Shown in pieces: positions 89 through 23,267 of a stretch of DNA of 64,000 nucleotides. Both the position numbers and the translations under genes were made by a program. A model generated the notes under the pieces. The model was not told the DNA's origin and searched no databases. It saw only the letters and a program-made list of their open reading frames with translations. The DNA is from Arthonia radiata (lineage: Eukaryota > Ascomycota > Arthoniomycetes > Arthoniales > Arthoniaceae), in NCBI GenBank assembly GCA_002989075.1, contig PSQN01000016.1, forward strand, positions 2,930,336-2,994,335, in the 5' to 3' direction. The stretch's first letter is position 1, and every line of letters starts with the position of its first letter.

Positions 89-1712
89 ATGCCCTCTGCT
101 CAGCCAGCTGCAGGCCATTTGGCTGTGAAGCCTGAGTACCTCTCTTCACAACCCTCCGCCGCTGCGAGCAAGTCGGAGCCAAACCGCAACAAGAATTATG
201 ACCCCAAGAAGCCTCACATCACCGATACGCCCATCACGAAGAAGAATTGGTACAAGCACGTCAACTGGCTCAACCTGACCTTGATTGTGTTCATCCCCAT
301 CATTGGACTGGTCAGTGCCATTTGGACGCCTCTCCGACTCCCGACCCTCATCTGGGCGACGCTCTACTACTTCTGCACGGGCTTGGGCATCACAGCGGGA
401 TATCACCGTCTCTGGGCTCATACCTCATACCGCGCCACTCCAGCTCTCCGCTTCATTCTCGCTTGCTGGGGTGCCGGCAGCGTCGAGGGCTCGGTCCGAT
501 GGTGGGCCCGCGACCACCGAGCACACCACCGCTACACCGACACTCAGAAGGACCCATACTCTGTTCGCAAAGGCCTACTCTACTCGCACTTTGGCTGGAT
601 GGTCATGAAACAGAACCCCAAGCGTATCGGTCGTACAGACATCTCCGACCTCAACGAAGATTCAATCGTCCGCATGCAGCACAAGCACTACCTGGCGTTC
701 GTCTTTGCCTTCGGCCTGGCTCTGCCATGGCTTGTTGCTGGACTCGGCTGGGGTGACTGGAAGGGCGGCATCGTCTATGCTGGCATCCTCCGCATCTTCT
801 TTGTCCAGCAGGCTACATTCTGTGTCAACAGCTTGGCACATTGGCTGGGAGATCAGCCCTTCGACGATGTAAGTTATCCCAATTGCATTGGTTGCGATGT
901 CTTGTACTGACCTTCATCAACAGACCAACAGCCCCCGTGATCACATCTTCACTGCTTTGATGACTCTGGGAGAGGGTTACCACAACTGTTAGTATTCAGC
1001 CCAAGCGGCATGTTTCTGGTAGCGAAGTAGACATACTGACGTTGACCGCTAGTCCATCACGAATTCCCGTCAGATTACCGCAATGCTATCGAGTGGCACC
1101 AGTACGACCCCACCAAGTGGTTCATCTGGACCTGCAAGAAGCTTGGATTGGCATCCGACCTGAAGCAGTTCCGCTCCAACGAGATTGAGAAGGGCCGTCT
1201 GCAGCAGCAACAGAAGAAGCTAGACCAAAAGCGCTCCCGTCTCGACTGGGGTGTACCGCTCGAGAGCTTGCCAGTAATGGAGTGGGACGATATGGTCGAT
1301 CAGGTCTCCAATGGGCGGTCTCTCATTTCGATCTCTGGCATCGTTCACGACGTCTCCAACTTCATCAAGGACCAGTACGTGTTCAACACTTCGCGAATAT
1401 TCTCTGTGATCGTTCCATGCTGATATGAAACTTAGTCCCGGCGGTAAAGCTATGATCAGCAGCGGCATTGGCAAAGACGCCACTGCTATGTTCAACGGTG
1501 GCGTTTACAAGCACAGCAACGCCGCGCACAACCTGCTCAGCACCATGCGCGTAGGCGTCATTCGAGGTGGTATGCCAGTCGATATCTGGCGCCGTGTCCA
1601 GGAGGAGAACAAGGACGGGGTCTTCAAGACTGCTTCTGGCGAGCGGATCCTTCGTGCTGGCGACCAGCCGACGAAGATCACAGAGCCCATGGCGATCGCC
1701 AACGCGGCGTGA
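89..1712 (+). CDS. ole1: acyl-CoA delta-9 desaturase with C-terminal cytochrome b5 domain
   Basis: Membrane di-iron enzyme of the ER that inserts the first double bond into palmitoyl- and stearoyl-CoA. Inferred exons 89-868, 924-987, 1053-1374 and 1436-1712 join in frame into about 480 residues, the usual length for fungal Ole1. The three histidine boxes are visible: HRLWAH, HRAHH and, across the second intron, HHEFP. Hydrophobic segments flank them. The last two exons encode a cytochrome b5 domain, and the final intron splits the histidine codon of its heme-binding HPGG motif. The start is the first ATG, preceded by a CT-rich leader as in strongly expressed fungal genes. No neighbour is related in function. 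Identification is secure; only the exon borders are inferred. Confidence 0.95.
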
Positions 1713-2922: not shown

Positions 2923-4623
2923 CTACCTATCGAACCGCAGTGGCAACCACTCCTTTGGCTCCTTGTCGTCGCCAGCCTCGGGTGAGTTCACACCAGACTC
3001 CGGCAGCGGGACACGACTCGGCGTCGGCGTCGCACAATCCTCACCGTACCGAACCTCTCCCTCTTCCTGCTCGCGTGGTGTACCACTAGATCGCGGTGGT
3101 GTCACGACACCAGTCGAAGCCATACCCTCACCCCTCGAGGTCGTGCTCTCACCCCGTGACCGGCTCACATCACCACCCAACGAGCGACTCACATCCTCAA
3201 CCGACGGTATCTGAGTCCATCCATACGTCCCCTCCTGCACCTCCACATCCCCTTCACCCGCAGTCGGCGCCAGTTCCGCTGAATTCGGCGGCGCACTAGT
3301 CCCGTGCCGAGGCGGCAGAATCGTGCCGGACGTCATATCCTCACCGTACGTGCTATCCTCCCCATACACACTATCCTTGTCAAGGGCAGTGCTGCTGTTT
3401 CCACCCCAGATGCTGCTGTCAAGGCTGTCTTCGCCGTGAGCGCCATCATCATCATGGGCTATCTCCTTGTCAACGGGGCCTCTATAGTCGAGGATAAGTC
3501 CCTCACCTCTAATAGCGTCGTCATCATACACACTACTGGGTCCAAAGCCGCTCTCCTCACGGCTGGCGGGTGGGGTGTCACGACCCTCCGGCAGCGTTTC
3601 GGACTCGTCCTGCAACTTCTCGCGCTCGCTGAGTGTTGAGCCTTCGTTAGCGATTTGGGAAGCATGGGCGACATCTTTGTATTGATAGATGCTGCTCGCG
3701 ACGCTACCTTGTCCACGTATGGCGTCGTCGTCGTATACGCTACTAGGCCCGAAGCCGCTCTCCTCGCGACTGGCCGGCGGGGTGTCACGGCCTTCCGGTA
3801 GTGTCTCGGACTCGTCGAGCAGGTTTGCGCGCTCGCTGAGGGTCGAGCCTTCCGTCGCGATTATCGACGCTGACTTCGTGCGTCGAAGCTGGAAGCCATG
3901 CGCTTCAGGGGCGGCGGAAGTCAAGGAGTCGGCTGACTTTGTAGATGGCGTTGGCGAGTGCGAAGAGCCGTGCGTAGCGGCTACGGAGGAGGCTTTTGGT
4001 GTTGACGGTTCGGGGTCGTGGGTTGAGGGTGTGGATTCGGCTGGGTTCGAGGGGCTGGGGAAGGTGGGTGAGGGGGTGGGACGAGGGGGAATTGGGGTGG
4101 TGGCGTATTTTGATGCGTCCAGCTGGGTGGTTGGGTCGACGCTTGGAGTGTCCTCGGAGGTGAGTGCGCGGGCTGTGTCGGATACGGTGGGTGTGCGGAC
4201 AGGTTTAGGGGAAGGTGCCGTTTGTGCTGTAGCGGACTCGAGGGGTTCGTCGTTAGGACTATTTATATAGTCGCCGTGGTTGTGGCTGATGTCGGACATC
4301 GTAACAAGCGAAATGACGAACGCGAGGACAAGGAAGTTTATGGTTGGTGAGGTATCCGTCAGAAGGACAGCAAAGAGATTGATGAGGAGAAAGTAGACGA
4401 GTGGCGACGAGTTCCGAGCGAGGAAGAGTGTGCCGAGATGTGCGATGACGAGAAGGGGTGTAAACAGCTGCACTGTTCGTTCGGAGTGTTGGTGGTGACG
4501 ATTGTGGTTGTTTTTATGGTGGTACTCGAGTTGCTTGGTGTGACGATTGTTTGGGAGGTCGTTTGTTGATGATGAAGGTTGTTTGAAGACTTGAGAGTTC
4601 CTTTGTTGGCAAGGAAAGGTCAT
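2923..4623 (-). CDS. membrane protein with long repetitive Ser/Thr/Pro-rich tail
   Basis: Not a family I can name. A single open frame of 566 residues from the ATG at 4623; the frame is open further upstream but without ATG. Residues about 50-108 form two or three closely spaced hydrophobic helices that resemble the short membrane genes just upstream (4955-7166). The rest is polar and rich in Ser, Thr, Pro, Glu and Asp, so probably disordered. It contains a direct repeat with 69-residue spacing: the block DESETLPEGRDTPP through YDDDAIRG occurs twice with identical amino acids but many synonymous differences. A third degenerate run has GEDS and YGED motifs. A shorter product starting at MSDISHNHGD (4302) would lack the helices and cannot be excluded. 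Role unknown. Confidence 0.7.
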   Translation of the reverse strand: MTFPCQQRNSQVFKQPSSSTNDLPNNRHTKQLEYHHKNNHNRHHQHSERTVQLFTPLLVIAHLGTLFLARNSSPLVYFLLINLFAVLLTDTSPTINFLVLAFVISLVTMSDISHNHGDYINSPNDEPLESATAQTAPSPKPVRTPTVSDTARALTSEDTPSVDPTTQLDASKYATTPIPPRPTPSPTFPSPSNPAESTPSTHDPEPSTPKASSVAATHGSSHSPTPSTKSADSLTSAAPEAHGFQLRRTKSASIIATEGSTLSERANLLDESETLPEGRDTPPASREESGFGPSSVYDDDAIRGQGSVASSIYQYKDVAHASQIANEGSTLSEREKLQDESETLPEGRDTPPASREESGFGPSSVYDDDAIRGEGLILDYRGPVDKEIAHDDDGAHGEDSLDSSIWGGNSSTALDKDSVYGEDSTYGEDMTSGTILPPRHGTSAPPNSAELAPTAGEGDVEVQEGTYGWTQIPSVEDVSRSLGGDVSRSRGESTTSRGEGMASTGVVTPPRSSGTPREQEEGEVRYGEDCATPTPSRVPLPESGVNSPEAGDDKEPKEWLPLRFDR

Positions 4624-4954
4624 GAGAGGTTTTGTTTGTTGACAAACAGGTGGAGACGAGGCAATGAGGCGTGCACAGGGTAAAGAAATTTGTAGGAGGT
4701 AAACGAGAGGCAAAAGATGAGGTTGGAGGTGAGGCGCATGATGTGTTTGCTTGAGATTGTCTGGCTAAACCTGGAAGCGACAAATGCCTTTCTCCCTGCA
4801 TCGTAGTCCTAGAACATCTCTGGAACGCCCGTGACCGCAAAAAGTATGGACCATGTGCGACAGATACCGGCGCTCTAACCTCGCCGTCTGATTCTGCTCG
4901 CTATGCCCCCGCTGACTGGACTTTTGTTGGTTGCCGTGTTTGCATCTGCAATGC
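4624..4954. other. intergenic spacer in membrane-gene array
   Basis: Between two minus-strand array genes. Probably the promoter and leader of the downstream gene; no separate feature seen. Confidence 0.5.
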
Positions 4955-5365
4955 CTACGCAAGCGATGCTGCAAGACGCGCGGCAGTGGTATCAACGTTG
5001 TTGAAGGAGCGACCTCCACTTATCACAAGCGCGAAGACGCCGATGGCGGCCGTGAAGATCTTGATTGACAGTGGCGCGCCTTCAGCGCTGGGGTTTAGTA
5101 TAACCAACAGAAACCCGAGCATCCCAGTGGTATGTGGGTTGTCCAAACTCGTCATCTGGAAGACGGCCAAGATAATGGCCATCAGATTAGTAGTCGGATC
5201 GGCTGGCATTGTAAGGAGGTGGAACATGTTGGAGCTGAGAAGGATAATGACACGAAGGTCGCGGCGAAATTTTGCCACAGCAATGAAGTAGGTGAAGACT
5301 AGGAGCGCTTGTGTGAGATGCGTGGCTGGTGACTGCGCCGCGATTATTGCGATTAGTGATGCCAT
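4955..5365 (-). CDS. small polytopic membrane protein, array member B
   Basis: 136 residues, uninterrupted, start ATG at 5365. Three to four hydrophobic helices: around residues 16-33, 37-55, 58-75 and near 100-118. The second loop carries MPADPTTNLMA followed by FQMTSLDNPHTT; the gene at 5804-6136 has MPADASTNLMA and FQMTSRENPHVT at the same place, so the two are close paralogues. No catalytic motif or signal-peptidase site is obvious. The same strand and spacing as its neighbours suggest tandem duplication. Function unknown; it does not resemble a transporter family I know. Confidence 0.7.
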   Translation of the reverse strand: MASLIAIIAAQSPATHLTQALLVFTYFIAVAKFRRDLRVIILLSSNMFHLLTMPADPTTNLMAIILAVFQMTSLDNPHTTGMLGFLLVILNPSAEGAPLSIKIFTAAIGVFALVISGGRSFNNVDTTAARLAASLA

Positions 5366-5803
5366 GACTGGTGGTCAGAGGTTGTCTTTGACTGCTGGCG
5401 TTCTCAAGTAGTGGATGGCTTTTGGGATGTTATGTTTGGATCAGGAATTCGTACTTCCGTGACTGTGACGATTTGGGGAAGAGATTAGGTTTTATAAATC
5501 TGTGCGAGCCTTTCTGGGCTTTCAAGAGATAACGGGAGGCAGTGCTAGAGGTGACAGGTGAGGCAGCGTGAAGTTTTGTTTAGGTTTGTCTGATAGCTCT
5601 AGGAACATGAAGCGCCCTGGGACTCAATTCTATTGTGCTGATGTATCTCAGTGATGTCTTTGACGGTGTCCAGTCCCTGAGTGGCCAATACTAATGTTCT
5701 TCATACATTGATAGACCCCTCACTTCACAACAGCTAACGCAGACCTCCCCGCTGGCTGTGCGCTCGTGCCCGCGATTCTGAACGCCAGTGATATCGATAT
5801 CAT
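5366..5803. other. intergenic spacer in membrane-gene array
   Basis: The sequence just upstream of the gene at 5365 (CTCAAGTAGTG near 5403, then T/G-rich) resembles that upstream of the gene at 6136 (CTCAAGTAGTG near 6173). The duplication therefore included 5' flanking DNA. No extra gene seen. Confidence 0.55.
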
Positions 5804-6136
5804 TCATTCAGCGGCTGCCAACAGCTCCAAAATGGTAACGGCGGTGCTGAAGACTTTCAATTGCGGACCACGATTGGAGCTGAGCACGCTGAACAAAGAC
5901 GCAAGCTGCTCAGTAACGTGTGGATTCTCCCGACTCGTCATCTGGAAGACAACCAGGGCGACGGCCATAAGATTGGTGGATGCGTCGGCCGGCATTGTGA
6001 GGAGGTGTGACATGTGGAAAGCGAGAGGGAGGACGACGCGAGAATTGGCGCGAAACTTCGCCATCGTCGCCAGAGTTACCATGACCAGGAGCATCTGCGA
6101 AAGCAGCGTCGGTGAGATATCGGCGGTTGAGTCCAT
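5804..6136 (-). CDS. small polytopic membrane protein, array member C
   Basis: 110 residues from the ATG at 6136; an in-frame upstream start at 6178 is not ATG and lies outside the conserved region. Paralogue of 4955-5365 along its whole length: a first helix ending in AKFR, a second helix, MPADASTNLMA, a third helix with VFQMTSRENPH, then a divergent tail. Nucleotide identity with its neighbour is also easy to see, including CTCGTCATCTGGAAGAC, so this is the youngest duplication in the array. The C-terminus is shorter and lacks the last clear helix. Unknown function. Confidence 0.65.
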   Translation of the reverse strand: MDSTADISPTLLSQMLLVMVTLATMAKFRANSRVVLPLAFHMSHLLTMPADASTNLMAVALVVFQMTSRENPHVTEQLASLFSVLSSNRGPQLKVFSTAVTILELLAAAE

Positions 6137-6650
6137 TGCTGCCGTTTTGAGATGGCCTGTTACTGGTAATGCTCTCAAGTAGTGTCTTGTTTTTATGGTG
6201 TTGTTTGTGGATCACAATTTTTGTACTTTGATCGTGAGCATTAGGGTGGAAAGCAAGTAGAGGTCTCGATGAAGTAAACAGTGCGGTGAAACACTGTGCG
6301 ATTGTTGGCAGTCACTTAGTGGCTGGTAGAAGGCAGCGCGGGAGGTGACAACGAAGGCACCTTGTAAGCTTGCTTGGGATCGTGGAACCAAGGCGACGAG
6401 TGGTTCTTGACACCTAATTCGAAGAGAACAACAACCATACCAATATGGCACTCGTGTCAACTTGACGCAGTCTGCATCGCCATAGCTGAGATGTCCGCAC
6501 GGATTCAACGCTACCACGTTCATGTATCTGAGCTACGTCACTGGTACGCCAGTGAGAGACGACCATACCCGTGACTATCGTCTCTATGACCTCCCGTCGA
6601 CACACAAGTGTACCCAGTTGGATGTGGTCCGACGAACGCCAGATTGCGCT
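6137..6650. other. intergenic spacer in membrane-gene array
   Basis: Contains the duplicated 5' flank of the gene at 6136. Small frames here on both strands lack family support. Nothing else seen. Confidence 0.5.
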
Positions 6651-7166
6651 TCAGTGATTCCAGTTTCGGGTTCGGTCGGGGCTGTGGTTGCTATCGCGGA
6701 TTTGGTTGGCCTGAGGTGTTGGTGTACGTGCCGCCGGAAGACGCTCGATCGGAGGATCCAGAGCGTGACCTATGGTGTCTCTGAAGTATAGCAAAACAGG
6801 CATGACGACCGAGGTGGCGATCCAGACTGGTGTAGAGGTTTCGTTTCGATAGATCGTCGTCAGAAAGCTAAGGAGACAGCAGATTACGCCATCTTGCTTG
6901 TAGGGTGTGAAACGACCTGTGATATTTTGAACCAGAATCATTTGGAACACATAGTTGATGAAATAGCAATTGATGACGTTGAACTGCGGAGTGGTGTCCA
7001 TGATGGCGACGATCATCAGGTCGCAGAACAGAATCGCGATGATCCAGATTGACTGGCGGAACGTCGCTAGGGCGGTCACGTAAAATACCATCAGGATCAT
7101 TCTGGCGAAGTCGAACCCCAGCATCTGCGTTCCTTTCTCGTTGATGATCTGACCGATCGTAAGCAT
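6651..7166 (-). CDS. small polytopic membrane protein, array member D
   Basis: 171 residues, start ATG at 7166. Four hydrophobic segments near residues 22-37, 41-58, 63-80 and 112-127, then a polar Pro/Arg-rich tail. The core has the same plan as members B and C: a helix ending TFRQS, a second helix, a DTTPQFN loop where the others have PADPTTN, then a helix ending FQMIL-QN where the others have FQMTS. It is much more diverged, so an older copy. No motif points to an enzyme. Role unknown. Confidence 0.65.
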   Translation of the reverse strand: MLTIGQIINEKGTQMLGFDFARMILMVFYVTALATFRQSIWIIAILFCDLMIVAIMDTTPQFNVINCYFINYVFQMILVQNITGRFTPYKQDGVICCLLSFLTTIYRNETSTPVWIATSVVMPVLLYFRDTIGHALDPPIERLPAARTPTPQANQIRDSNHSPDRTRNWNH

Positions 7167-7511
7167 GTTTGGTGATTAGGTTATTAGCCGCTTGATGATC
7201 TATGGCGGTCGTGCTGGTTGCGTCTCTCTGATTAGTGACAGTTGCAAAGTGTGGTCACGTCAAGTGAAGGGAAAGAAAACAGAAGTCTTCTGCGGAATAT
7301 AAACAGTTCGAGACTCGGAGACAAGCCAATGCAAGAAGAGACTGGAGACGCGTCTTGGGATCTTGTTTGACCAAATGAAACTGAGCCCACCTTACATGGC
7401 AATAGCCCTTGCCCTTATGTGAGCGGTTGCTTCACCCATCTCGACGCTCATGTTGATCACACCGCTTCAAGAGATGGCATGGGGACTCCACAAAGCTCTC
7501 TTCGTTGTGCT
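7167..7511. other. intergenic
   Basis: Spacer between array member D and the helical-protein pair; no feature recognised. Confidence 0.5.
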
Positions 7512-7961
7512 TCAAAACCACACGTCCGCAACGGTCTGTTTCAGCTCCTTGGCGTTATGCTCTAGGTTGATCGTGTCATCCAACAGCCCGAGCCACGTGT
7601 CGTCCCAATCAGACTCCACTTCATCCACCTCGTACATTTCCTTCCGCGCCTCTTCAACCATCGCTTCAATCGTGGAGATGAAGCCGCGCAAAAAGCTCCT
7701 CTCGTCGTGACGCGTCATAGGATCGCGCATCGCGGTCCAGGCCTCATTCAGATACCAATTCGCTGTCTTTCCTTCATTATCCATCGTATCGTCACAAGGA
7801 TCATCGCAGGTGCGGTGGTAGCGGTTGAGAACCTTTTGCTCGGCGATGAGGGTCGCGTTGATGTAGTCAAGGACTTGTTGGAGGCAGCCGAAGGCTTCGG
7901 GCATGGCGTTGAAGTTGGGTTTGGTTGGCATTTTGACGACGCTGGCGTTGGCGATGCACAT
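7512..7961 (-). CDS. small alpha-helical protein, paralogue 1
   Basis: 149 residues from the ATG at 7961; the frame is open upstream but without ATG, so an upstream exon is possible. No signal peptide or membrane helix in this part. Composition and spacing suggest a helical bundle. The stretch around NWYLNEAWTAMRDP lines up with DWYRDHIFATMADP in the next gene (8242-8772), and both end in a long amphipathic helix, so I read them as diverged duplicates. No named domain recognised. It interrupts the membrane-protein array on the same strand. Confidence 0.5.
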   Translation of the reverse strand: MCIANASVVKMPTKPNFNAMPEAFGCLQQVLDYINATLIAEQKVLNRYHRTCDDPCDDTMDNEGKTANWYLNEAWTAMRDPMTRHDERSFLRGFISTIEAMVEEARKEMYEVDEVESDWDDTWLGLLDDTINLEHNAKELKQTVADVWF

Positions 7962-8241
7962 GTTGAAACACTGTTGGTAATGCTGACAGGAGACTGAGAC
8001 TGACCGTGACCGTGAAACAGGAGTTTGGGAGGTTGCAAGGAGGGACAAAGCTGGAAGATTGAGGTGCACGACCCAATTCTCTTGCAAAAGTGAGGTGCGG
8101 CAGGTGGAGCCACTTTCCTGGAAATTATTTCGTCGTCTGGGGTTACCGCTACACTTCCACACCTTCGCACTCACTTCAATTGGTATCCTCGCGCAAGCTA
8201 GTCTCCCTTCTACTGGCGCAATCTCAAAGCAGCCAATATGC

Positions 8242-8772
8242 TCACTCCTGCGATCCCTTGAACTGCTTCAAAATACTTTGAAGGACATCCCCCACCACAT
8301 TGACCTTGTGTGCCACCTCCATGAACAAGGGCCCGGCCTGCTCCTCTGCTGCTAGTTTGGCCGCTTCTGTGTAGAGCACATCCAGCATCTGGTCGATAAT
8401 CGTGACAAGCTTTCGAGCAGGAGCGATCTGCTGCTCCTTCACCTCAGGATCTGCCATGGTGGCGAAGATGTGATCGCGGTACCAGTCGCCTTCGCCATTG
8501 AGATTGTGAAGAGACGCCCACCAGCAGAAGTTGTTGTAGTCGAATATAGCACGATTCTGGGCTTGAACTGCTTGTAGTAATGCCTTCGACATTCGTTCGA
8601 GGTAGTCGAGAGCTTCATTGACGGCTTTCATTTTTCGAGCGCTGCTGGTCATCTGCATTACTCCGACGAATGTGATCTGGGTGTTCGTAGCTGTGAATGG
8701 TGGCTGTGGCTCCTCGGCTGGCTCATCTGCAGCAGCCTTTTTAGCGACCGCGTCACCTGAGGCTCTCAACAT
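8242..8772 (-). CDS. small alpha-helical protein, paralogue 2
   Basis: 176 residues from the ATG at 8772. A short Ala/Pro/Glu-rich N-terminus precedes a region of predicted long helices (residues about 45-175) rich in Ala, Glu, Gln and Leu. The motif DWYRDHIFATMADPE aligns with the neighbour at 7512-7961; overall similarity is low but the order of features is shared. The helices could form a four-helix bundle. No catalytic residues are evident and no family name can be assigned. Confidence 0.55.
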   Translation of the reverse strand: MLRASGDAVAKKAAADEPAEEPQPPFTATNTQITFVGVMQMTSSARKMKAVNEALDYLERMSKALLQAVQAQNRAIFDYNNFCWWASLHNLNGEGDWYRDHIFATMADPEVKEQQIAPARKLVTIIDQMLDVLYTEAAKLAAEEQAGPLFMEVAHKVNVVGDVLQSILKQFKGSQE

Positions 8773-8981
8773 CGTGATTGCTGCAACTGTTGTCTTCGAG
8801 AATTGTATGGGACTTGCGAGGAAGCTGACAGTCCTGCGAAGATGAAGCAAGCCCGCGAGAGTGAATCGACTGGACCGTTTGCGTCGGTTGCAGATGCCTT
8901 ATACGGAAGTGATCCAAGCCCGCGCGTTTGCTTTCTGACAGTCATGTTGATAGTTATATTGTGCAACCCCACTTGCATTCA

Positions 8982-9220
8982 TCAAGGCCCTGTTAGCTCA
9001 GTGGTAACGAGTTCGCGGCTCTCCGATAACAAAAGCCGTAATATGAGTCCCTCGTGTCTCATCAGCAGACTTCACGACTGTCAGCTGCAGGGGCGACACC
9101 CGTCCTGTAAAATGGTGAACCCCTGCCTACTCTTCGGAGGTGCGCGGGAAGACTAATTCGAAAGAGTTATCTGTAACTGGTTCTGGGTTCGAATACGGCC
9201 CTTGAGTGGTGAGTTTTTTT
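8982..9220 (+). ncRNA. putative RNA polymerase III transcript with tRNA-like ends
   Basis: The 5' end has a tRNA-type D-arm and box A (GTTAGCTCAGTGGTAACGAG, 8992-9011) and the 3' end a box-B-like GGGTTCGAATAC (9185-9196). Box spacing is about 190 nt, far longer than in a tRNA. The ends pair (8982-8990 with 9197-9205, one mismatch), like an acceptor stem. The interior is strongly structured: GCAGGGG/CCCCTGC enclosing CACC/GGTG, CTC-TTCG-GAG, AGTTA-TCTG-TAACT and CGGCT/AGCCG hairpins. A T7 run follows at 9214-9220 and an A/T-rich TAGTTATATT lies about 30 nt upstream. Options are a tRNA-derived SINE, a tRNA with a large insert, or a stand-alone structured RNA. The T-stem is imperfect, so a functional tRNA is unlikely. 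Confidence 0.55.
9214..9220 (+). terminator. T-run, probable Pol III terminator
   Basis: Seven T residues directly after the closing stem of the tRNA-like RNA. Confidence 0.5.
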
Positions 9221-9441
9221 GCCTTCTTTTTGTTCTTTGCGTGCTTTTTGAGACTGTGTTGTTCCCCGTCAACGTCTTCCCCTTCGAACTGTCTGGATCT
9301 CATTCCAGAATGGCTGTGGATGCAATGGTCTTGTCATTGATTTTTGAATTGGAATTGATGTTCTTTTCTAACTCCACATACTCCGATCTGCCCAAAATGT
9401 AAGAGCTGTCTCGCCCATGACAGATCCTTTCCCTCACAACA

Positions 9442-10059
9442 TCATGTGAAACGTTTGTAGGGCGTCTCCCTGAGCGACGGAGTGATCGATGTCGTCCCCA
9501 CGGACTCCGGCCACAGTTTCGGTGCTAGGGCTGGGGCTGGGGTACTTTTCGCTTCTGGCGTGGTGCCCAAGCTGGAGCACGTGTCACCCGTGGTTGATAA
9601 ATCACGACGCTCGCGAGGTGAGACTCTATCCGGTGTCTCCAAAGACTTGGTCCGATATAAGAGCTCGCCATCCATAGCTGCAGGCCCCTCCTTGCGAACA
9701 TTGAGTTCATGAACGTTGACGACTATCTTCTGTTGGCTTCGAATGAGCTTACTAGCCGTCATCCCTAGCAAGCCAAGAGTGATTGCCGACATCATGAGCT
9801 TCATCTCATGGATCGCTTTGGATACGGGATCCCCTGAATAGCATGACAGCATTAGGCATATCAGGATGCCAACGTTGAACAGCCAGGATTTGCGCAAGCA
9901 CGTCAGTAGGATGAGGTACATGCTCATGGAGAAACAGCGGAGGACGCCGGTGAGTGCTTCGATTCCCTCATCGGTCAGAGCTTGACAGTCGTGACTGAAT
10001 ACGTGAGAAGCGTCGTGCAGGTCGCAGCTCTGCAGGAAGTTGAAGTACTTGCGCATCAT
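9442..10059 (-). CDS. membrane protein, array member E
   Basis: 205 residues from the ATG at 10059 (two adjacent ATGs). Residues about 45-110 contain three hydrophobic helices: FSMSMYLILLTCLRKS, then NVGILICLMLSCYS, then MMSAITLGLLGMTASKL. The helix-Arg/Lys-helix-loop-helix order matches array members B-D. The remaining 90 residues are polar and end in a Ser/Thr/Pro-rich tail, a smaller version of the tail in 2923-4623. Family membership is inferred from topology and weak similarity only. Function unknown. Confidence 0.55.
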   Translation of the reverse strand: MMRKYFNFLQSCDLHDASHVFSHDCQALTDEGIEALTGVLRCFSMSMYLILLTCLRKSWLFNVGILICLMLSCYSGDPVSKAIHEMKLMMSAITLGLLGMTASKLIRSQQKIVVNVHELNVRKEGPAAMDGELLYRTKSLETPDRVSPRERRDLSTTGDTCSSLGTTPEAKSTPAPALAPKLWPESVGTTSITPSLRETPYKRFT

Positions 10060-10196
10060 GAGTGGCTGCAGCTCGTCAAGTAGTAGGAGAATCTGTCTGT
10101 CTGTGGATACCCTCAGGCGGAGTCTCTGTGTTGAGATGCATGAACTCGATTGATTGACGGACGAGTGTTATTACAACATTGTGAGAGGTATGGTTT

Positions 10197-10388
10197 TCAT
10201 AGGTAATAGGCAGCAAACACGAGGTACAACGCATAGTGAAAGGCGGTGCGAGCACCGAGCAGAAAGACTGACTTGAGAAAGAAATCTAGTGCACCGCAGA
10301 CAGCTAGGTTCAGTGCCACTGACTTCGGAATCATCACGAACAAGGACAAAAGCTCAGGGATATCAAGTCTTGCATTGTCCAACGCCAT
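10197..10388 (-). CDS. very short membrane protein or remnant, array member F
   Basis: 63 residues from the ATG at 10388, with two hydrophobic segments (about residues 14-34 and 37-60) separated by LDFFLKS. It lies 137 bp upstream of member E on the same strand. It may be a truncated array copy or an upstream exon of member E; no clean splice pair joining them was found. Low confidence as a separate gene. Confidence 0.35.
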   Translation of the reverse strand: MALDNARLDIPELLSLFVMIPKSVALNLAVCGALDFFLKSVFLLGARTAFHYALYLVFAAYYL

Positions 10389-10528: not shown

Positions 10529-11214
10529 CTAGTACTCCGGCAAAAGCCTGTCATAGTAGTAAGGCTGGTAGCCTTCATCGTCTTCGTCGTCCTCTTCAGA
10601 AACCGAATCGTAGTCTGAACCCTCCGTGGAACTAGGAGAGGTCGCTCCTGAGCTGAGACTCGAGTAGGAATCGTCCGCTGAGTCCGCAGAGCTGACCTCG
10701 GAGCTTGCACAATCCTTGGCGTGCACGATTGCCCAGGATCCAGAGCTGTCAGTGGAGTCATCAGTAGAGTCGCCAGTAGAGTCGCCAGTAGAGTCGCCAG
10801 TAGAGTCGTCAGTGGAGTCGTCAGTTGAATGCTCAGCAGAATCATCAGTAGAGTCATGTGAGTTTGCTGAGGAGCTTGCATCAGGGTTCGAGTAATAGAT
10901 TGAGTCTATGAAGCTCGCGCTTGTAGTCTCGTCGGACTCTGCAGAGTTCGAGGAGGAGTCTGGCTCAACAGAACCCTCGTAAGTCGTAGAATCATTTGCA
11001 GCTCCGGTCTCGGGATTGGCACCGAAACAGACCGCCAAGTTTGCAAGTTGGTTAACGCTACAATAAAGTACCACAAAACCCACTCCAGGTGGGACATAGT
11101 AGTGACAAAAGCCGGGGTCGATTCCATACGCCCGGTGGTGGTACCGTTGATGTGGCGATTGCTGCCGGAGCTACCACGGTCTACAACGGGCGCCTTGGAG
11201 ACGTAGTTCGCCAT
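10529..11214 (-). CDS. Ser/Asp-rich low-complexity protein
   Basis: The frame ending at 10529 encodes about 180 residues, mostly Ser, Asp, Thr and Glu, with a run of D-S-T-D and D-S-T-G tetrapeptides and an acidic then Tyr-rich C-terminus (EEDDEDDEGYQPYYYDR). It has no ATG of its own, so the N-terminus must come from upstream. A frame starting at ATG 11214 overlaps and contains a hydrophobic stretch (EWVLWYFIVAL); an intron near 11040-11150 could join them, but no consensus donor/acceptor pair that keeps frame was found. A hydrophobic N-terminus followed by a Ser/Asp/Thr repeat would suit a cell-surface or secreted protein, but this is inference. Confidence 0.5.
10749..10856 (-). repeat. 12-bp coding tandem repeat
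   Basis: About nine imperfect copies of a 12-bp unit (GAGTCGCCAGTA and variants), in frame with the Ser/Asp-rich gene and encoding DSTG/DSTD tetrapeptides. Length variation between strains is likely. Confidence 0.8.
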
Positions 11215-12299: not shown

Positions 12300-13452
12300 A
12301 TGTGGGACAACTTCTTCACGCTGCTGTCATTCAGCTTTGTGATGGGTATAGCGTGAGGCGCTCATATCGTGTAATTCTGGATCTCCACTGACCCAGACCT
12401 CAGATCCTTCCTGGCTGGCTATCTCCCTCTATCGTTTGGCCTGTCTCAGAACCATTCTCGGATAATACAAGCCATTGGTACGGGACTCCTCGTCGGAACA
12501 TGTCTGATCATCATCATACCTGAAGGCATCGACACCCTGTACGAAGCTGCAGCGTCTCGCGGAGCAGACACAAACATTCCCGGCGCCCAGCTGGAAGATG
12601 GCATCGCCAAGCGGGAGGAGCACATTCATGATCCCGCATGGGAGCCACATGCGTTCGTTGGCATTTCGCTAGTCGCAGGCTTCATTATGATGTACCTGAT
12701 CGATCAACTCCCGAAACATGCATCTTCCTCCGATGTGCAACGGCCGCTGCACATCTCACTTGCCAACTTGTCCCAGGGACCACACAGGGCATCGTCTCCT
12801 AGCAGATTTGAAGAAGGCAACGAGGAGGATCTCCACGAAAGCCATGCAGCGCCACAAAGTATGGCCACAACCATTGGACTCGTGATACATGCCGCAGCAG
12901 ATGGCGTAGCATTGGCAGCATCGTCCTTCATATCACAAGCGAGCACTGGATTCATCATTTTCCTAGCGCTCATGGTGCACAAAGCTCCTGCAGCTTTTGG
13001 ACTCACTTCGGTTCTGCTCAAGCAAGGATTCACGAAACGACAGGCACGGGCACATCTAGTAATCTTCAGTCTGGCGGCGCCGGTGGGCGCATTTGCGACT
13101 TGGACGCTGGTAAACGTAATGGCTGGTGGAAGAATAGAGGGAGGTGAAAGAACGGAGTTTTGGACTGGGCTTCTCTTGTTGTTTTCTGGTGGAACATTTC
13201 TGTGAGTATATCACGGGCCTGCGCTCGGCTCGATTACTAACAGCTTGCAGGTACGTCGCAATGCACACCATGCAGGAGGACGGCGACGAGGGTCACAGCC
13301 ACTCGATGAATGGGTATTCCGGTGGCACACCTGCATACAGTGGAGGGCCAAGTTCAGGCCCAGCCCCAAAACAACCCACGATGAGGGACACACTACTGTC
13401 TGTCGTCGGCATGTTATTACCGCTACTGGCGCAACTTGGGCATGCACATTGA
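12300..13452 (+). CDS. ZIP-family zinc transporter, SLC39A9-like
   Basis: Predicted Zn2+ transporter of Golgi or other endomembranes. Inferred exons 12300-12345, 12397-13201 and 13251-13452 give 350 residues in frame. The N-terminus matches the ZIP9 pattern: a helix, FLAGYLPLSF, then GTGLLVGTCLIIIIPEG. The metal-binding core is visible in IGLVIHAAADGVALAAS (His and Asp of TM4) and LMVHKAPAAFGL (His-Lys of TM5). The variable loop is His-poor, but HSH near the C-terminus and HEHIH-like sites in the first loop could bind metal. Both introns have good branch sites (CACTGAC and TACTAAC). The tiny first exon rests on splice logic and hydrophobic continuity. Confidence 0.88.
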
Positions 13453-13965: not shown

Positions 13966-16184
13966 ATGGAAGAAGACGAAGTCATGGCAGATGACAGCCC
14001 AACACGCACACCTACTCGAAGAAATCGCTCTTCCTTGCTCGATTCTTCTGACGAGGACGCTCCATCCAGCAGCCACTACACATCTCCCACAAGAAGATCA
14101 CAGCAGCGAAGAGGTATGCTCTCTCGACCCACTAAACCGCGAAAGATCACTACGTCCTCGAGTCCCCTCAACACCACTCTACCGAACAACACCTTGCCCT
14201 CGGCTCCTGCTTCTCCGCCCACGCCAGCACCCTCTCCGAGTCCACACCACCGGCTACCGGATTGGAGCACCGCTAGCGAGAATGATGAAGAAGGCTCAAG
14301 AATGCTGCGATACATATTCACAGAGGCATCAGAAAGTCAAAAGCGGAGGCTCCTGACTGAGATGCTGAATCTATGCAACAACCGACATCTTACATTTGTA
14401 CATGATATTGTCTGTCCACGCTTAAAGAAGGATCCATTCACTACATTGCCGGATGAGATATGTCTACGAGTGAGTATCATCTATCTCCAGCGCCGACACG
14501 TCCGCTAACATGATCGCAACACAGATACTGTCCTTCGTAGACGAGGCTCGAACGCTCGGTCGAGCTGCGCAAGTATCGCACCGGTGGCATGAGTTGGTGA
14601 GCGACGACATCACATGGAAGCTGATGGGCGAAAAATATGCGTACCGTCGCATGTCAAACGATTCTGATGCAGAGGTGGACAACACGTTTCGGTCAGCATC
14701 ACCAACCCCGACAGACGTGCCGCGCCATCCTTTCGCAAGCCGCACGAATTCTCGGCGTCACTTGCCTCGAGCGCAAGCATCTGCTCTTCCTAGCGCGTCT
14801 ACTAGTGCTCCTGATTTGACGACTGCGTCGTGGGATGGCGCTGCGAGCATGTCGAAGCAGTCCGCGAAGAATCGTGCTGCAAAATACTCCAGCTATAGGA
14901 ATCACTTCAAGCGAAGATACATGGTCGAGACCGCATGGCGCACGGGTGGACACATGCGAGCGCGGCATATCACGCCAGACCAGGGCGTTGTGACCAGCTT
15001 GCATTTGACGCACAAATACATTGTGGTTGCGCTGGACAATGCCAAAATCCACGTGTTTGACTCTGAAGGGCAACATCAGAAGACACTGCACGGTCATGTG
15101 ATGGGTGTTTGGGCAATGGTGCCGTGGGGCGATATCCTTGTGTCGGGCGGGTGTGATCGAGATGTTCGTGTCTGGAATATGGCCACTGGGCAGAATTTGC
15201 ATGTTTTACGCGGTCACACAAGCACTGTACGATGTTTGAAGATGAGTTCGCCGACAATAGCCATCACTGGGTCTCGAGATACAAGCCTGCGTGTGTGGGA
15301 TATTGTAAAGGGCAAACCCGTGCACAATCTGGTCGGCCACCAAGCGAGCGTCCGCTGCATTGAGGTGCATGGCGATCTCGTCGCGAGTGGTTCGTACGAC
15401 ACCACTGCAAGAATATGGAGCATATCAGAGGGGCGCTGCTTGCGCGTTTTGCAAGGTCACTTCAGCCAGATCTATGCCATTGCGTTCGATGGCAAGCGTG
15501 TGGCGACTGGTAGCCTGGATACTAGTGTTCGCATCTGGGACGCGCAGGAGGGTAAGTGTCTAGCCATATTGCAAGGCCACACAAGCCTAGTGGGACAGCT
15601 TCAGATGCGCGACAACACGCTTGTCACTGGCGGTAGTGATGGCAGTGTACGGGTGTGGACGTTGGACCGCATGGTGCCCATTCACAGGCTAGCCGCGCAC
15701 GACAACAGCGTTACCTCGCTGCAGTTCAACGAGGCCCGCATAGTAAGCGGCGGCTCTGACGGCAGAGTGAAGGTGTGGGATTTGAGGACGGGACAGCTTG
15801 TGCGAGAGCTTAGTCAGCCAGCAGAGGCGGTATGGCGGGTAGTGTTCGAAGAAGAGAAGGCTGTGATCATGGCTAACCGGAATGGCCGAACGATAATGGA
15901 GGTATGTTGTGAAGTCCCCTCACTCACGTGTGGGGCAGTTTGTCTAACATCATTAGGTGTGGTCATTCGCTCCGACCGCCGAGATTCTCGCTGAGCGCTC
16001 TCGCTCGTCATCCAGTAGCTCGCTCGCCGGACGAGTCGAGCACGGCGCCAGACATAGTATTGATGCCGTCGAGTCCAACGATGTAGTCATGTCAGATGGC
16101 GGCGGTGAGCGAGCTGCGTCCCCGCGTGGCTCCTCCATGCGAAAGGCATTAGAGCACAAGCCCTCATCTTCGAGCGGCCAGTAG
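13966..16184 (+). CDS. cdc4: F-box/WD40 protein, Cdc4/FBXW7-like SCF substrate receptor
   Basis: Substrate-binding subunit of an SCF ubiquitin ligase, expected to recognise phosphodegrons of cell-cycle regulators. Exons 13966-14469, 14525-15901 and 15957-16184 give about 702 residues. Order: disordered Ser/Pro-rich N-terminus; a helical region (about 105-150); an F-box spanning the first intron (LPDEICLRILSFVDEA); linker; then WD40 repeats from about residue 330. At least six blades end in typical WD pairs (VRVWN, LRVWD, ARIWS, VRIWD, VRVWT, VKVWD), each preceded by a GH or AH. A divergent first blade (IHVFD) and closing VWSF would make seven or eight. The C-terminus is Ser-rich. Other Cdc4-like WD proteins exist in moulds, so strict orthology is likely but unproven. 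Confidence 0.88.
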
Positions 16185-18966: not shown

Positions 18967-19354
18967 GGGGAGTGCTCAAATGTCTCGGTTGATGAATCTG
19001 GTAGGTAATGTTGTTGCAAGATTGAACCGGCGGGATGAAGTGAGCAGAATGTAAAGAAGCTAAAGGACGTTTGTATGCTTTTTGTGGCACAAGGTGGTGA
19101 TGAAGTCGTAATTTGACGCCACTGGTCGAGCGGTGGTGTTTGCGATAGGCTCTACATCTTACAGTGCTCGATTGTCGAGGCAAGGTGAAGTAAAAGGTGC
19201 TGATAGTCGAGACTGTTCATCACCTTTTCCGGTCAGCCGATGTTAAATAGTGGCAAACAGAGTCAAGGCACTCCAACACCCACTCTGCCTTCGCTCATCC
19301 ACTGCAACAACCACAATCCACGAAACCCAAGTCAACCCCAGAAAAAGACCACAG
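18967..19354. other. divergent intergenic region
   Basis: Shared upstream region of two divergent genes (18966 and 19355). No specific binding site identified. Confidence 0.5.
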
Positions 19355-20068
19355 ATGGCCTCGGACCCCAATAAAGTACCGCCACCTCTCCCGAACGCGA
19401 TCCTCGATCATATTATCGCGTACACACTTAGCATCGAGCTCACCACAGCCATATACCCCCATCCGGACGATTGTCACTATTTCCACCCTCGCCGGACCTT
19501 CCTCTCCGCCGCGTTCCGATTCGCGCTCGTCTCGCACGCCTTCCTCAGCTTCACCCGCAAGCACATCCAAACTCTGCTCCAATGGAGCTTCGAAGCGGAC
19601 GAATCGCTGGGTAAGCAGTATGCATGGCACTTGCGATCTTTTGGTCCCAACCGTTGCCGTGAGACGGGAGCACAAATTTCCGTCCTTGAGGATGATAGAT
19701 GCATGTACTGTATCGAGCATACGGAAACGTGCGAAATGGGCATGCAGGAGGTGTGTCGGCTCGATTACGCGCTAGCTGCGCTGGAGTACGTTAGGATTGC
19801 ACGATGCGGATACGAGAGGAAGCGGGATGCAGAGTTGCAACGAATCTGGATGAAGTCGCGACGGGATTATCGGTGGAGGCGGAGGGGTGCGCTGGCCAGG
19901 TGGTATTTCTCCTTGACGATGTCAGTAATCGTAGTAATGGCACTCGTGGACCTCTCCGTGGACCTTGTCGTGAATGGCGTTCCGGGGGCGCACTTACTGA
20001 TGGTGGTGCCGCTGGGGGCAGTAGTATCGATGGTTTGGTGGTTAGGACTAGAATTTTTGCGTTTCTAG
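19355..20068 (+). CDS. F-box-like protein with C-terminal membrane segments, paralogue 2
   Basis: 237 residues from the ATG at 19355 (upstream in-frame codons have no ATG). The N-terminus reads PPPLPNAILDHIIAYTLS, an F-box-like LP..IL..II core. Then FRFALVSHAFLSFTRKHIQTLL, shared with FRLACVSHAFLGLVRRCTRQLL at 20363-21019. The middle has Cys residues (MYCIEHTETC) and CRLDYALAALEYVRIARCG, again shared. Two hydrophobic stretches at the C-terminus (about residues 188-205 and 212-233) would anchor it in a membrane. The combination suggests a membrane-tethered Skp1-binding adaptor, but this rests on the F-box-like core alone. Confidence 0.7.
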   Translation: MASDPNKVPPPLPNAILDHIIAYTLSIELTTAIYPHPDDCHYFHPRRTFLSAAFRFALVSHAFLSFTRKHIQTLLQWSFEADESLGKQYAWHLRSFGPNRCRETGAQISVLEDDRCMYCIEHTETCEMGMQEVCRLDYALAALEYVRIARCGYERKRDAELQRIWMKSRRDYRWRRRGALARWYFSLTMSVIVVMALVDLSVDLVVNGVPGAHLLMVVPLGAVVSMVWWLGLEFLRF

Positions 20069-20362
20069 AAGCTCGGCGACGCTTCATTTGACGGCATCGG
20101 TCTACCGGCCGCTTTTTGGGAGCGTTGAGCGGATTTACGTACCTGGTGTCTCGCTGACAAGAAGGGCAAGGCGTAGATGTTGAAGAGACTCGCTCCTCCG
20201 GATTCCAGAGTAGGGGAGACTAGTAGAGAATTGGAAAGGCTGCTCCAGTCCTTTGAGGTGAACATTCATCTTCACTTTCACCTCCCCTTCAAACCCCAAG
20301 TCCGTCATAAGTTCCGCTTCCTCAACCTCAGCCTAACTCATCATCATTTCACATCAACAATA

Positions 20363-21019
20363 ATGGCCACCGCCATTCTCCCCAAATCTACACCACCGCC
20401 CCTGCCCACGGAAATCCTCGAACAAATCATCACCCACACCCTCACCTCCGCCCTCCACAATAGCACCTTCTTCCCCTGCTCACTCTGGGGCGGCAAAGAA
20501 TGCCCAAATCCCTCTCTTACCCGCTACTACACTGCGACAGCCTTCAGGCTCGCATGCGTCTCCCATGCCTTTCTCGGCCTCGTGCGCAGATGCACGCGCC
20601 AGCTTCTGCGAAACGAGACCGTGGCGAATCCACCGCTGAGTGCCCTGTACTATCACCGCCTGCACAAGTATGGGACGAAGCACGCGGCGGCCAGGGTGAC
20701 GACGGGGGAGTTCTACCCTCGGTCTCCTGCGGGGTGGGTGATGATGGGTGGAATCAACTTCAGGGTCCGATTTCAGGCGCAGAGCATTTGTCGGTTGGAT
20801 CTTGCGGTGGCTGCGTTGGGGTTTGTCAAAGTCGGAGCGTGGAGAGGTAGGGAAGACAAGAATGCCGCGCATGATCGGGTCTGGGGAAAGGCGCGGGATG
20901 TGTATTGGGCGAGGAGGAGGCGGATGGCGCTGACTTGGTGGTTTTGGAGAACGGGTTATGTTGCGTTGGTGACTTTTGCGGTGGTTCTGCTGGGCATGTG
21001 CCTGATTCATTGCTGGTAA
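20363..21019 (+). CDS. F-box-like protein with C-terminal membrane segment, paralogue 3
   Basis: 218 residues from the ATG at 20363; the frame extends upstream to 20177 but that part looks like leader. N-terminus PPPLPTEILEQIITHTLTSALH is the clearest F-box-like core of the cluster. It shares FRLACVSHAFLG, CRLDLAVAALGFVKVGAWR and a WGKARDVYWARRRR basic stretch with its neighbours, and ends with one hydrophobic helix (about residues 190-213) close to the C-terminus, as in tail-anchored proteins. It is 294 bp downstream of paralogue 2 on the same strand, consistent with tandem duplication. Confidence 0.72.
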   Translation: MATAILPKSTPPPLPTEILEQIITHTLTSALHNSTFFPCSLWGGKECPNPSLTRYYTATAFRLACVSHAFLGLVRRCTRQLLRNETVANPPLSALYYHRLHKYGTKHAAARVTTGEFYPRSPAGWVMMGGINFRVRFQAQSICRLDLAVAALGFVKVGAWRGREDKNAAHDRVWGKARDVYWARRRRMALTWWFWRTGYVALVTFAVVLLGMCLIHCW

Positions 21020-22550: not shown

Positions 22551-23267
22551 CTACACAAACAGCAGCGTCACGCCTGTGGTAGCCATCACGCCGGCCAGCA
22601 CCAGCATACATCGCCGCTGATTCGAGAGCTCTTTCACTGTAGGTGAATCCTGTGCTGTAGATTCCTCAGAAACCAGCGCCCGCTTGGACTGCCATAAGCG
22701 ACGTTTCTCACCCCACGACCGCTGCGTCCCCACATCCTTCCTGGTCTGATATTCCCACTTGGCCACCTCAACGTATTCGAGCGCACCCAGAGCACGCGCT
22801 GCCCGGCCGAACTTGAATAGAACGACGTCGTATCGAGCTTTGTACTCGCGCTGCCGCTCTCGGTGCTGGGCACATGTAACGAACCCCTTGCAGCGTCGCT
22901 CACTGGTACACGTGTCTGCGCGTCGTAGATGCTCCTCGTCTTCGATGTCGAAGGCCGTCCAGAGGAGGTCATGGAGATGCTGAGAGTAGCGACGAACGTG
23001 GTAAAGGAAGGCCTTGCAGGTGAGTGCCAGCCTGAATGCGGCGGCGACGTAGTATAGGTCGGGTGATGGACCTGGTGGATGGTCCAAATCACAATTCACT
23101 GACGGTATGATGACACACGTATTCAGGCTGTGATGTCAAAACGTCAGTACATTGTCTTCTGGACTGCAAGGCGGCTTCAGAACAGAATGTGTGGACGACA
23201 GAACTTACTCATCTGCGAGACGGTGTTTGATGATCTGTTCGATGATCTCTGCAGGGAGTTTAGGCAT
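22551..23267 (-). CDS. F-box-like protein with C-terminal membrane segment, paralogue 4
   Basis: Two exons, 23209-23267 and 22551-23127, with an 81-nt intron (GTAAGT...CAG), giving 211 residues. The small first exon encodes MPKLPAEIIEQIIKHRLAD, the F-box-like core; the second contains FRLALTCKAFLYHVRRYSQHL and ALGALEYVEVAKWEYQTRKD, both matching paralogues 2 and 3, then WGEKRRLWQSKR, and ends in one hydrophobic helix of about 18 residues (CMLVLAGVMATTGVTLLFV) at the extreme C-terminus. This is a textbook tail-anchor arrangement. The middle also has a four-cysteine stretch (C-x5-C-x5-C). Confidence 0.72.

Follow-up and report, generated by a model that had tools for sequence, protein, structure and literature searches.

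Four diverged tandem membrane-protein genes without named relatives in the genome of Arthonia radiata

A 64,000 nucleotide (nt) stretch of the Arthonia radiata genome (contig PSQN01000016.1, positions 2,930,336 to 2,994,335, or C2:2930336-2994335; referred to here as the window) carries six minus-strand open reading frames (ORFs), A to F, most of which encode proteins with several hydrophobic segments (Table 1). The genome amounts to 33.5 Mb in 16 contigs. The locus raises the question of whether these ORFs are copies of one gene, how many of them are, and what the products might do. A sequence-only reading had described all six as one array of membrane-protein genes, and each ORF was confirmed at its position by the ORF listing and by ATG-started translation. 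At least three hydrophobic 15-mers are found in each of A to E, and fewer in F. ATG-started ORFs of at least 60 amino acids (aa) with at least three such 15-mers number 19 on both strands of 244 kb, A to E included, which amounts to 0.29 per 7.5 kb per strand. As five of the 19 fall in this one place, the clustering of A to E on a single strand is not attributable to chance. The sequence comparisons below support a local family of A–D, whose products would be small polytopic membrane proteins that have strongly diverged, and leave E and F outside it.

Membership of the family

Profile searches were made against 3,470 six-frame ORFs of at least 40 aa, taken from the window and 18 control stretches (244 kb together). 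B and C are 47% identical in amino acid sequence, and their homology is certain (E 1.8e-22). A profile built from B and C placed D third among the 3,470 ORFs, directly behind B and C themselves (E = 0.0022), with A at E = 1 and the next ORF at 1.3. Once D had been added to the profile, A was found at E = 0.0004 and the next ORF at E = 4. The outer members had been expected to be retrieved by a profile seeded with B and C; this held for D, and for A only once D had been added; E and F were not retrieved. When profiles were trained on three of the four genes, the left-out member came directly after the trained ones in all four cases (D 6.5e-5, C 6.3e-15, B 2.3e-15, A 4e-4), the best non-members being at 0.18, 0.19, 1.7 and 4, respectively. 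Five of the six models trained on pairs put both left-out members above all other ORFs. Decoys made by reversing the ORFs reached at best E 0.51 with the B+C profile, 2.4 with B+C+D and 2.1 with all four. Common ancestry of B and C is thereby established by sequence similarity, and A and D are joined to them by profile.

Pairwise alignments were compared with 1000 shuffles that keep the hydrophobic/polar pattern of each protein, so that the number of shuffles attaining the real score measures similarity over and above that pattern. None did so for B-C, one for B-D, two for A-B, and five each for A-C and A-D.

A family of all six ORFs would draw on the anatomy of E, which combines three hydrophobic segments with a basic turn and a GDP loop, and on the D-E alignment, whose score was attained by 66 of 1000 shuffles. 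The scores of the remaining eight pairs that involve E or F were attained by 323–980 of 1000, both ORFs ranked between 298 and 783 of the approximately 2,500 ORFs reported with the BC, BCD and ABCD profiles, and their upstream DNA is unlike that of A–D; a six-member family is highly improbable. E and F, having failed profile retrieval, were rejected as members, and the single plan claimed for six ORFs therefore stands for the four joined by profiles and falls for these two. ORF E may be a separate orphan membrane gene, unrelated to A–D by sequence.

Relatives were sought more widely. Nine proteins of the array and its neighbourhood were scanned against Pfam-A at E ≤ 10, and none reached a gathering cut-off, the weak matches being PLDc_N on D (E 0.54) and Lin1244_N (0.095) and IgD3_Trs65 (0.096) on E. 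Nor was an NCBIfam curated cut-off reached in a scan of A, B, C, D, E and the neighbouring ORFs S1 and S2 (F was left out), in which the one weak match, on E, scored 14.6 bits (E 0.014) where 277 would be needed. The B/C/D profile found no match at E ≤ 10 among PDB sequences. Searches of the organism's own genome at E ≤ 10 retrieved B and C from each other, while A, the membrane part of A and D each retrieved just themselves; no copy of A–D was found outside the array, and none that was near-identical, in a search that also misses D when started from B. The genome search is insensitive for this reason, so more distant copies may exist. Pattern searches gave 42 matches in bacterial and archaeal genomes and 94 in viral contigs, none of them confirmed as a relative, which says little because those collections do not aim at fungi. 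A literature search, based on titles and the opening lines of abstracts, gave no matching description of such a family. The proposal that small polytopic membrane proteins form a local family here, one that no named family covers, was thus borne out for A–D, by the profiles and by the Pfam and NCBIfam scans. Orphan tandem families are already a known kind, and this one showed no relatives in the collections that were searched.

Upstream flanks, coding constraint and the tail of A

The approximately 400 nt upstream of eight ORFs were compared in 28 pairs, with 100 dinucleotide shuffles for each. The upstream regions of B and C are clearly alike (Smith–Waterman score 31, z 14, 0/100 shuffles), as are those of A and B (score 23, z 7.9, 0/100), and the matching blocks are listed in Table 1. 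The 400-nt stretches upstream of E and F have 71 nt in common, and their match (score 71, 0/100 shuffles) is therefore spurious. An exact 14-mer is common to A (4508-4521) and C (6187-6200, inside the 5′ flank block of C). In C it lies about 50 nt before the ATG, and the equal spacing in A runs into the membrane-coding part. The first 45 or so residues of A may therefore be a translated former 5′ leader, and the start of A at 4623 is putative; a start at the methionine beyond helix 3 would remove the helices.

Coding constraint could be measured between B and C. Over 110 codons, the nonsynonymous and synonymous distances (dN and dS) were 0.46 and 1.14 by NG86, 0.50 and 1.26 by YN00, and 0.50 and 2.09 by LWL85, a pairwise dN/dS ratio of 0.24–0.40 depending on method; the other pairs were saturated or not estimable. 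Differences between B and C, in counts derived from rounded percentages, occupy 78 of 220 first and second codon positions and 56 of 110 third positions (p = 0.009). Identity at first and second positions is highest (0.725–0.825) from helix 2 to helix 3. The pairwise ratio of B to C gave no indication of positive selection, site models needing more sequences. Codon usage, which is weaker evidence of coding than codon-position bias, gave in-frame scores of 0.107–0.149 bits per codon for A–F, above those of 26 of 27 spurious ORFs.

The tail of A, beyond helix 3, has 80 acidic (D+E) and 36 basic (K+R) residues and 158 serines, threonines and prolines. It contains two copies of a 49-aa repeat that are identical at 45 of 49 residues, and the 32 nucleotide differences between them are distributed as 2, 3 and 27 over codon positions 1, 2 and 3 (p = 1.6e-11). 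This bias implies that the reading frame of the tail is translated and held, and the repeat is a strongly constrained module. Long polar tails had been read in two copies of the array; A has one of 456 aa and D a modest one of about 40 residues, while E, which also ends in a polar tail, was not shown to be related. A tRNA-His called by ARAGORN at 3764-3861 (plus strand) is probably false, as it lies inside the coding repeat of A and has no Rfam match at the gathering score.

These results bear on a reading in which the ORFs are independent orphans that began as transmembrane segments, born de novo in one intergenic island and similar by chance. That no homologs were found, that the ORFs are hydrophobic and that the scores of A and D are weak would all suit such an origin. 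It is contradicted by the certain homology of B and C, by the poor scores of the reversed-ORF decoys, by 5′ flanks common to A/B and B/C, and by the constraint in the tail of A, and we consider it improbable.

Predicted topology and the favoured explanation

At the threshold used, B has five hydrophobic segments and a weak one at residues 1-15, D has five, C four and A three; the fifth segment of C was placed by hand, as were the limits of the loop segments. In B, C and D, 10–19 residues precede helix 1. The net charge of loop 1 is +3 in B and C and +1 in D and A, and that of loop 2 is −1 in all four. A D/P-T-x-N loop before a helix with FQM had been noted in three genes and is indeed present in B, C and D; A has a DTSPTIN loop without FQM. 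An AlphaFold model of B, made with the family alignment, has helices on the five segments and at residues 2-9 and 124-135 (mean predicted local distance difference test score, pLDDT, 59.6), and a model of D, folded alone without an alignment, has five main helices and a short tail helix (mean pLDDT 49.3); both models are of low confidence and serve for helix count only.

By the positive-inside rule, basic loops are cytosolic. Loop 1 would then face the cytosol, as would the tails of A and D, and loop 2 would lie on the luminal side. The ancestral protein probably had five helices, a luminal N-terminus, a cytosolic basic loop 1, a luminal acidic loop 2 with the D/P-T-x-N motif, and a cytosolic C-terminus. 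The hairpin formed by helix 2, loop 2 and helix 3 is the likely working core, since conservation between B and C is strongest there.

The explanation we favour, and regard as reasonably probable, is that A–D are four old tandem duplicates of one small integral membrane-protein gene. One ancestral gene would have been duplicated in tandem, its upstream DNA copied along at least partly, and the copies would have diverged by altering the cytosolic end. As to function, we infer that the products most probably serve as small accessory or adaptor subunits, binding either a partner in the membrane or a cargo; an endomembrane site for them is a guess. A, which is without helices 4 and 5, would recruit a cytosolic partner through its constrained acidic double-repeat tail.

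Several points weigh against this explanation. A and D stand near the detection limit, A reaching just E = 1 with the B+C profile alone, and the models that include A use its hand-trimmed membrane part. The A+C pair model puts an ORF of the other strand, at 7423-7707 (plus; E 0.0029), above D (0.0069), and the C-D score was attained by 58 of 1000 pattern-preserving shuffles, so that this pair by itself is not significant. Clear upstream likeness is confined to A-B and B-C among the six A–D pairs. That of B-D is weak (z 3.1, 2/100 shuffles), that of A-C (score 14, 5/100) is no better than that of A with the unrelated S1 (score 14, 5/100), and none was seen for A-D (57/100) or C-D (13/100); the stretch upstream of A (4470-4870) was chosen by hand, unlike the others. 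One of the 27 spurious ORFs was not exceeded by the codon scores of A–F, and by codon usage an antisense frame outscores B, C, F and the membrane part of A. Both low-confidence models hold helices beyond the five segments, and of the 54 Foldseek matches to the model of B at E ≤ 10 none was at E ≤ 0.001; all of them (E 2.8 at best) are noise.

The safest statement, taken from the sequence comparisons, is that A–D are a four-member, old, tandem orphan family of membrane-protein genes. The function of orphan membrane genes is usually hard to approach; in this case four copies can be aligned, and they offer functional work a hairpin that is conserved, a predicted topology and a tail module under constraint. 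The array also illustrates the extent to which paralogs can diverge and still retain a trace of kinship in the protein profile and, in some of the copies, in the 5′ flanks.

Neighbouring features and known systems

Table 1. Positions of the array genes, their parts and flanking blocks, and neighbouring ORFs in the window.
Feature	Position	Strand	Remarks
Desaturase ORF	89-910		left bound of island
ORF with cytochrome-b5 match below cut-off	1148-1423		separate ORF after the desaturase ORF
Gene A	2923-4623	minus	three hydrophobic segments, residues 53-109, then 456-residue acidic S/T/P-rich tail
A tail repeat, copy 2	3505-3651	minus	49 aa
A tail repeat, copy 1	3712-3858	minus	49 aa
Membrane part of A	4249-4488	minus	limits hand-trimmed for alignments
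Upstream block of A	4702-4763	minus	matches B 5531-5592
Gene B	4955-5365	minus	136 aa, five main hydrophobic helices
5′ flank of B	5378-5477	minus	matches C 6149-6246
Upstream block of B	5531-5592	minus	matches A 4702-4763
Gene C	5804-6136	minus	110 aa, closest paralog of B
5′ flank of C	6149-6246	minus	matches B 5378-5477
Gene D	6651-7166	minus	171 aa, five hydrophobic helices, ~40-residue polar tail
S1	7512-7961	minus	orphan ORF between D and E, without hydrophobic segments
S2	8242-8772	minus	orphan ORF between D and E, without hydrophobic segments
ORF E	9442-10059	minus	three hydrophobic segments, basic turn, GDP loop, polar tail
ORF F	10197-10388	minus	
ZIP transporter ORF	12687-13205		right bound of island
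WD40 gene	14510-15994		

S1 and S2 are each other's best other match in phmmer (E 0.039 and 0.097; z 7.0, 0/1000 shuffles) and by this similarity are diverged paralogs, a second family beside the membrane array. S1 also matches, distantly, a place outside the island (C2:762771; E 8.7e-4, with three internal stops), so this family may extend beyond it; compared by phmmer with the 48 ORFs of that locus, S1 matched just a 7.5-bit fragment (E 0.0089), and an intron-containing gene may be present there.

An element of about 240 nt at 8989-9232 (plus strand) has a tRNA-like A box, a B-box-like sequence GGTTCGAAT and a T-run terminator. Three further copies were found in the genome (91, 89 and 83% identity), with a nearly invariant core and diverged ends, and the consensus fold shows two-sided change in 7 of 66 pairs. 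No Rfam match was obtained at the gathering score, the single match (E 2.3) being at chance level. The element is a candidate short interspersed element (SINE) or undescribed RNA polymerase III (Pol III) RNA family.

Further to the right, a 12-nt minisatellite at 10730-10867 lies inside a Ser/Asp-rich ORF (10529-11083, minus strand) and codes for DDST-like repeats. A second local cluster consists of paralogous ORFs at 19250-20068 (plus), 20177-21019 (plus) and 22551-23099 (minus), which are alike at z 12–36 (0/300 shuffles each) and have no Pfam match at E ≤ 0.01.

The whole island between the desaturase and ZIP ORFs might be pictured as a conflict locus, in which A–D and the soluble family of S1 and S2 coevolved as partners, one constrained, repeated cytosolic tail is exposed, and turnover is aided by the structured Pol III-like repeat; we hold this to be very unlikely. 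A birth-and-death history with a self/non-self role for A–D, as suggested in the sequence-only reading, is possible but not supported within this one genome, in which the insensitive search gave no further copy of A–D and the B-C ratio is 0.24–0.40. The pairwise constraint between B and C neither proves nor excludes a role in conflict.

Short orphan membrane proteins are also known from yeast, where emerging ORFs that begin as transmembrane segments have been described as arising de novo (PMC7005711; review PMC12684174). A–D resemble them in being short orphan membrane proteins and differ in being duplicated and constrained, with partly common flanks.

Killer meiotic drivers of the wtf family make toxin and antidote from one gene, and strongly diverged multi-helix proteins in tandem would be in keeping with such a family, its products having multiple transmembrane segments (PMC10721834). 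According to the same source, the antidote in Schizosaccharomyces carries PY motifs in a cytosolic N-terminal tail, by which it binds ubiquitin ligases. A–F resemble these proteins in their multiple helices; unlike them, they contain no PY motif ([LP]PxY), and just the short stretch described above precedes helix 1 in B, C and D, which makes a wtf-like driver extremely unlikely.

A good precedent for a conflict family is yeast DUP240/KTD1, small, fast-evolving arrayed membrane proteins of endolysosomes with roles in strain-specific toxin protection or in the regulation of cargo sorting. KTD1 is a DUP240 member in Saccharomyces cerevisiae, and DUP240, related to COS/DUP380, comprises proteins that have three conserved domains and two transmembrane helices joined by a short linker; positively selected sites of the family fall within and next to this linker, which is important for protection (PMC9974470). 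Both loci are arrays of small membrane-protein genes away from telomeres and partly close to tRNA or transposon sequence, the island of A–D containing the Pol III-like repeat about 1.8 kb beyond D. The search of the genome likewise found no further copy of A–D. Against a family of this type stand the B-C ratio, which gives no sign of positive selection, the finding of no near-identical copies, and, comparing descriptions rather than sequences, the two helices of DUP240 proteins as opposed to the five predicted in B and D (three in A). A DUP240/KTD1-like family is accordingly an unlikely account of A–D, ranking behind old tandem duplication of an accessory membrane-protein gene. Variation of the array between strains would make it a candidate KTD1-like defence locus outside yeasts.

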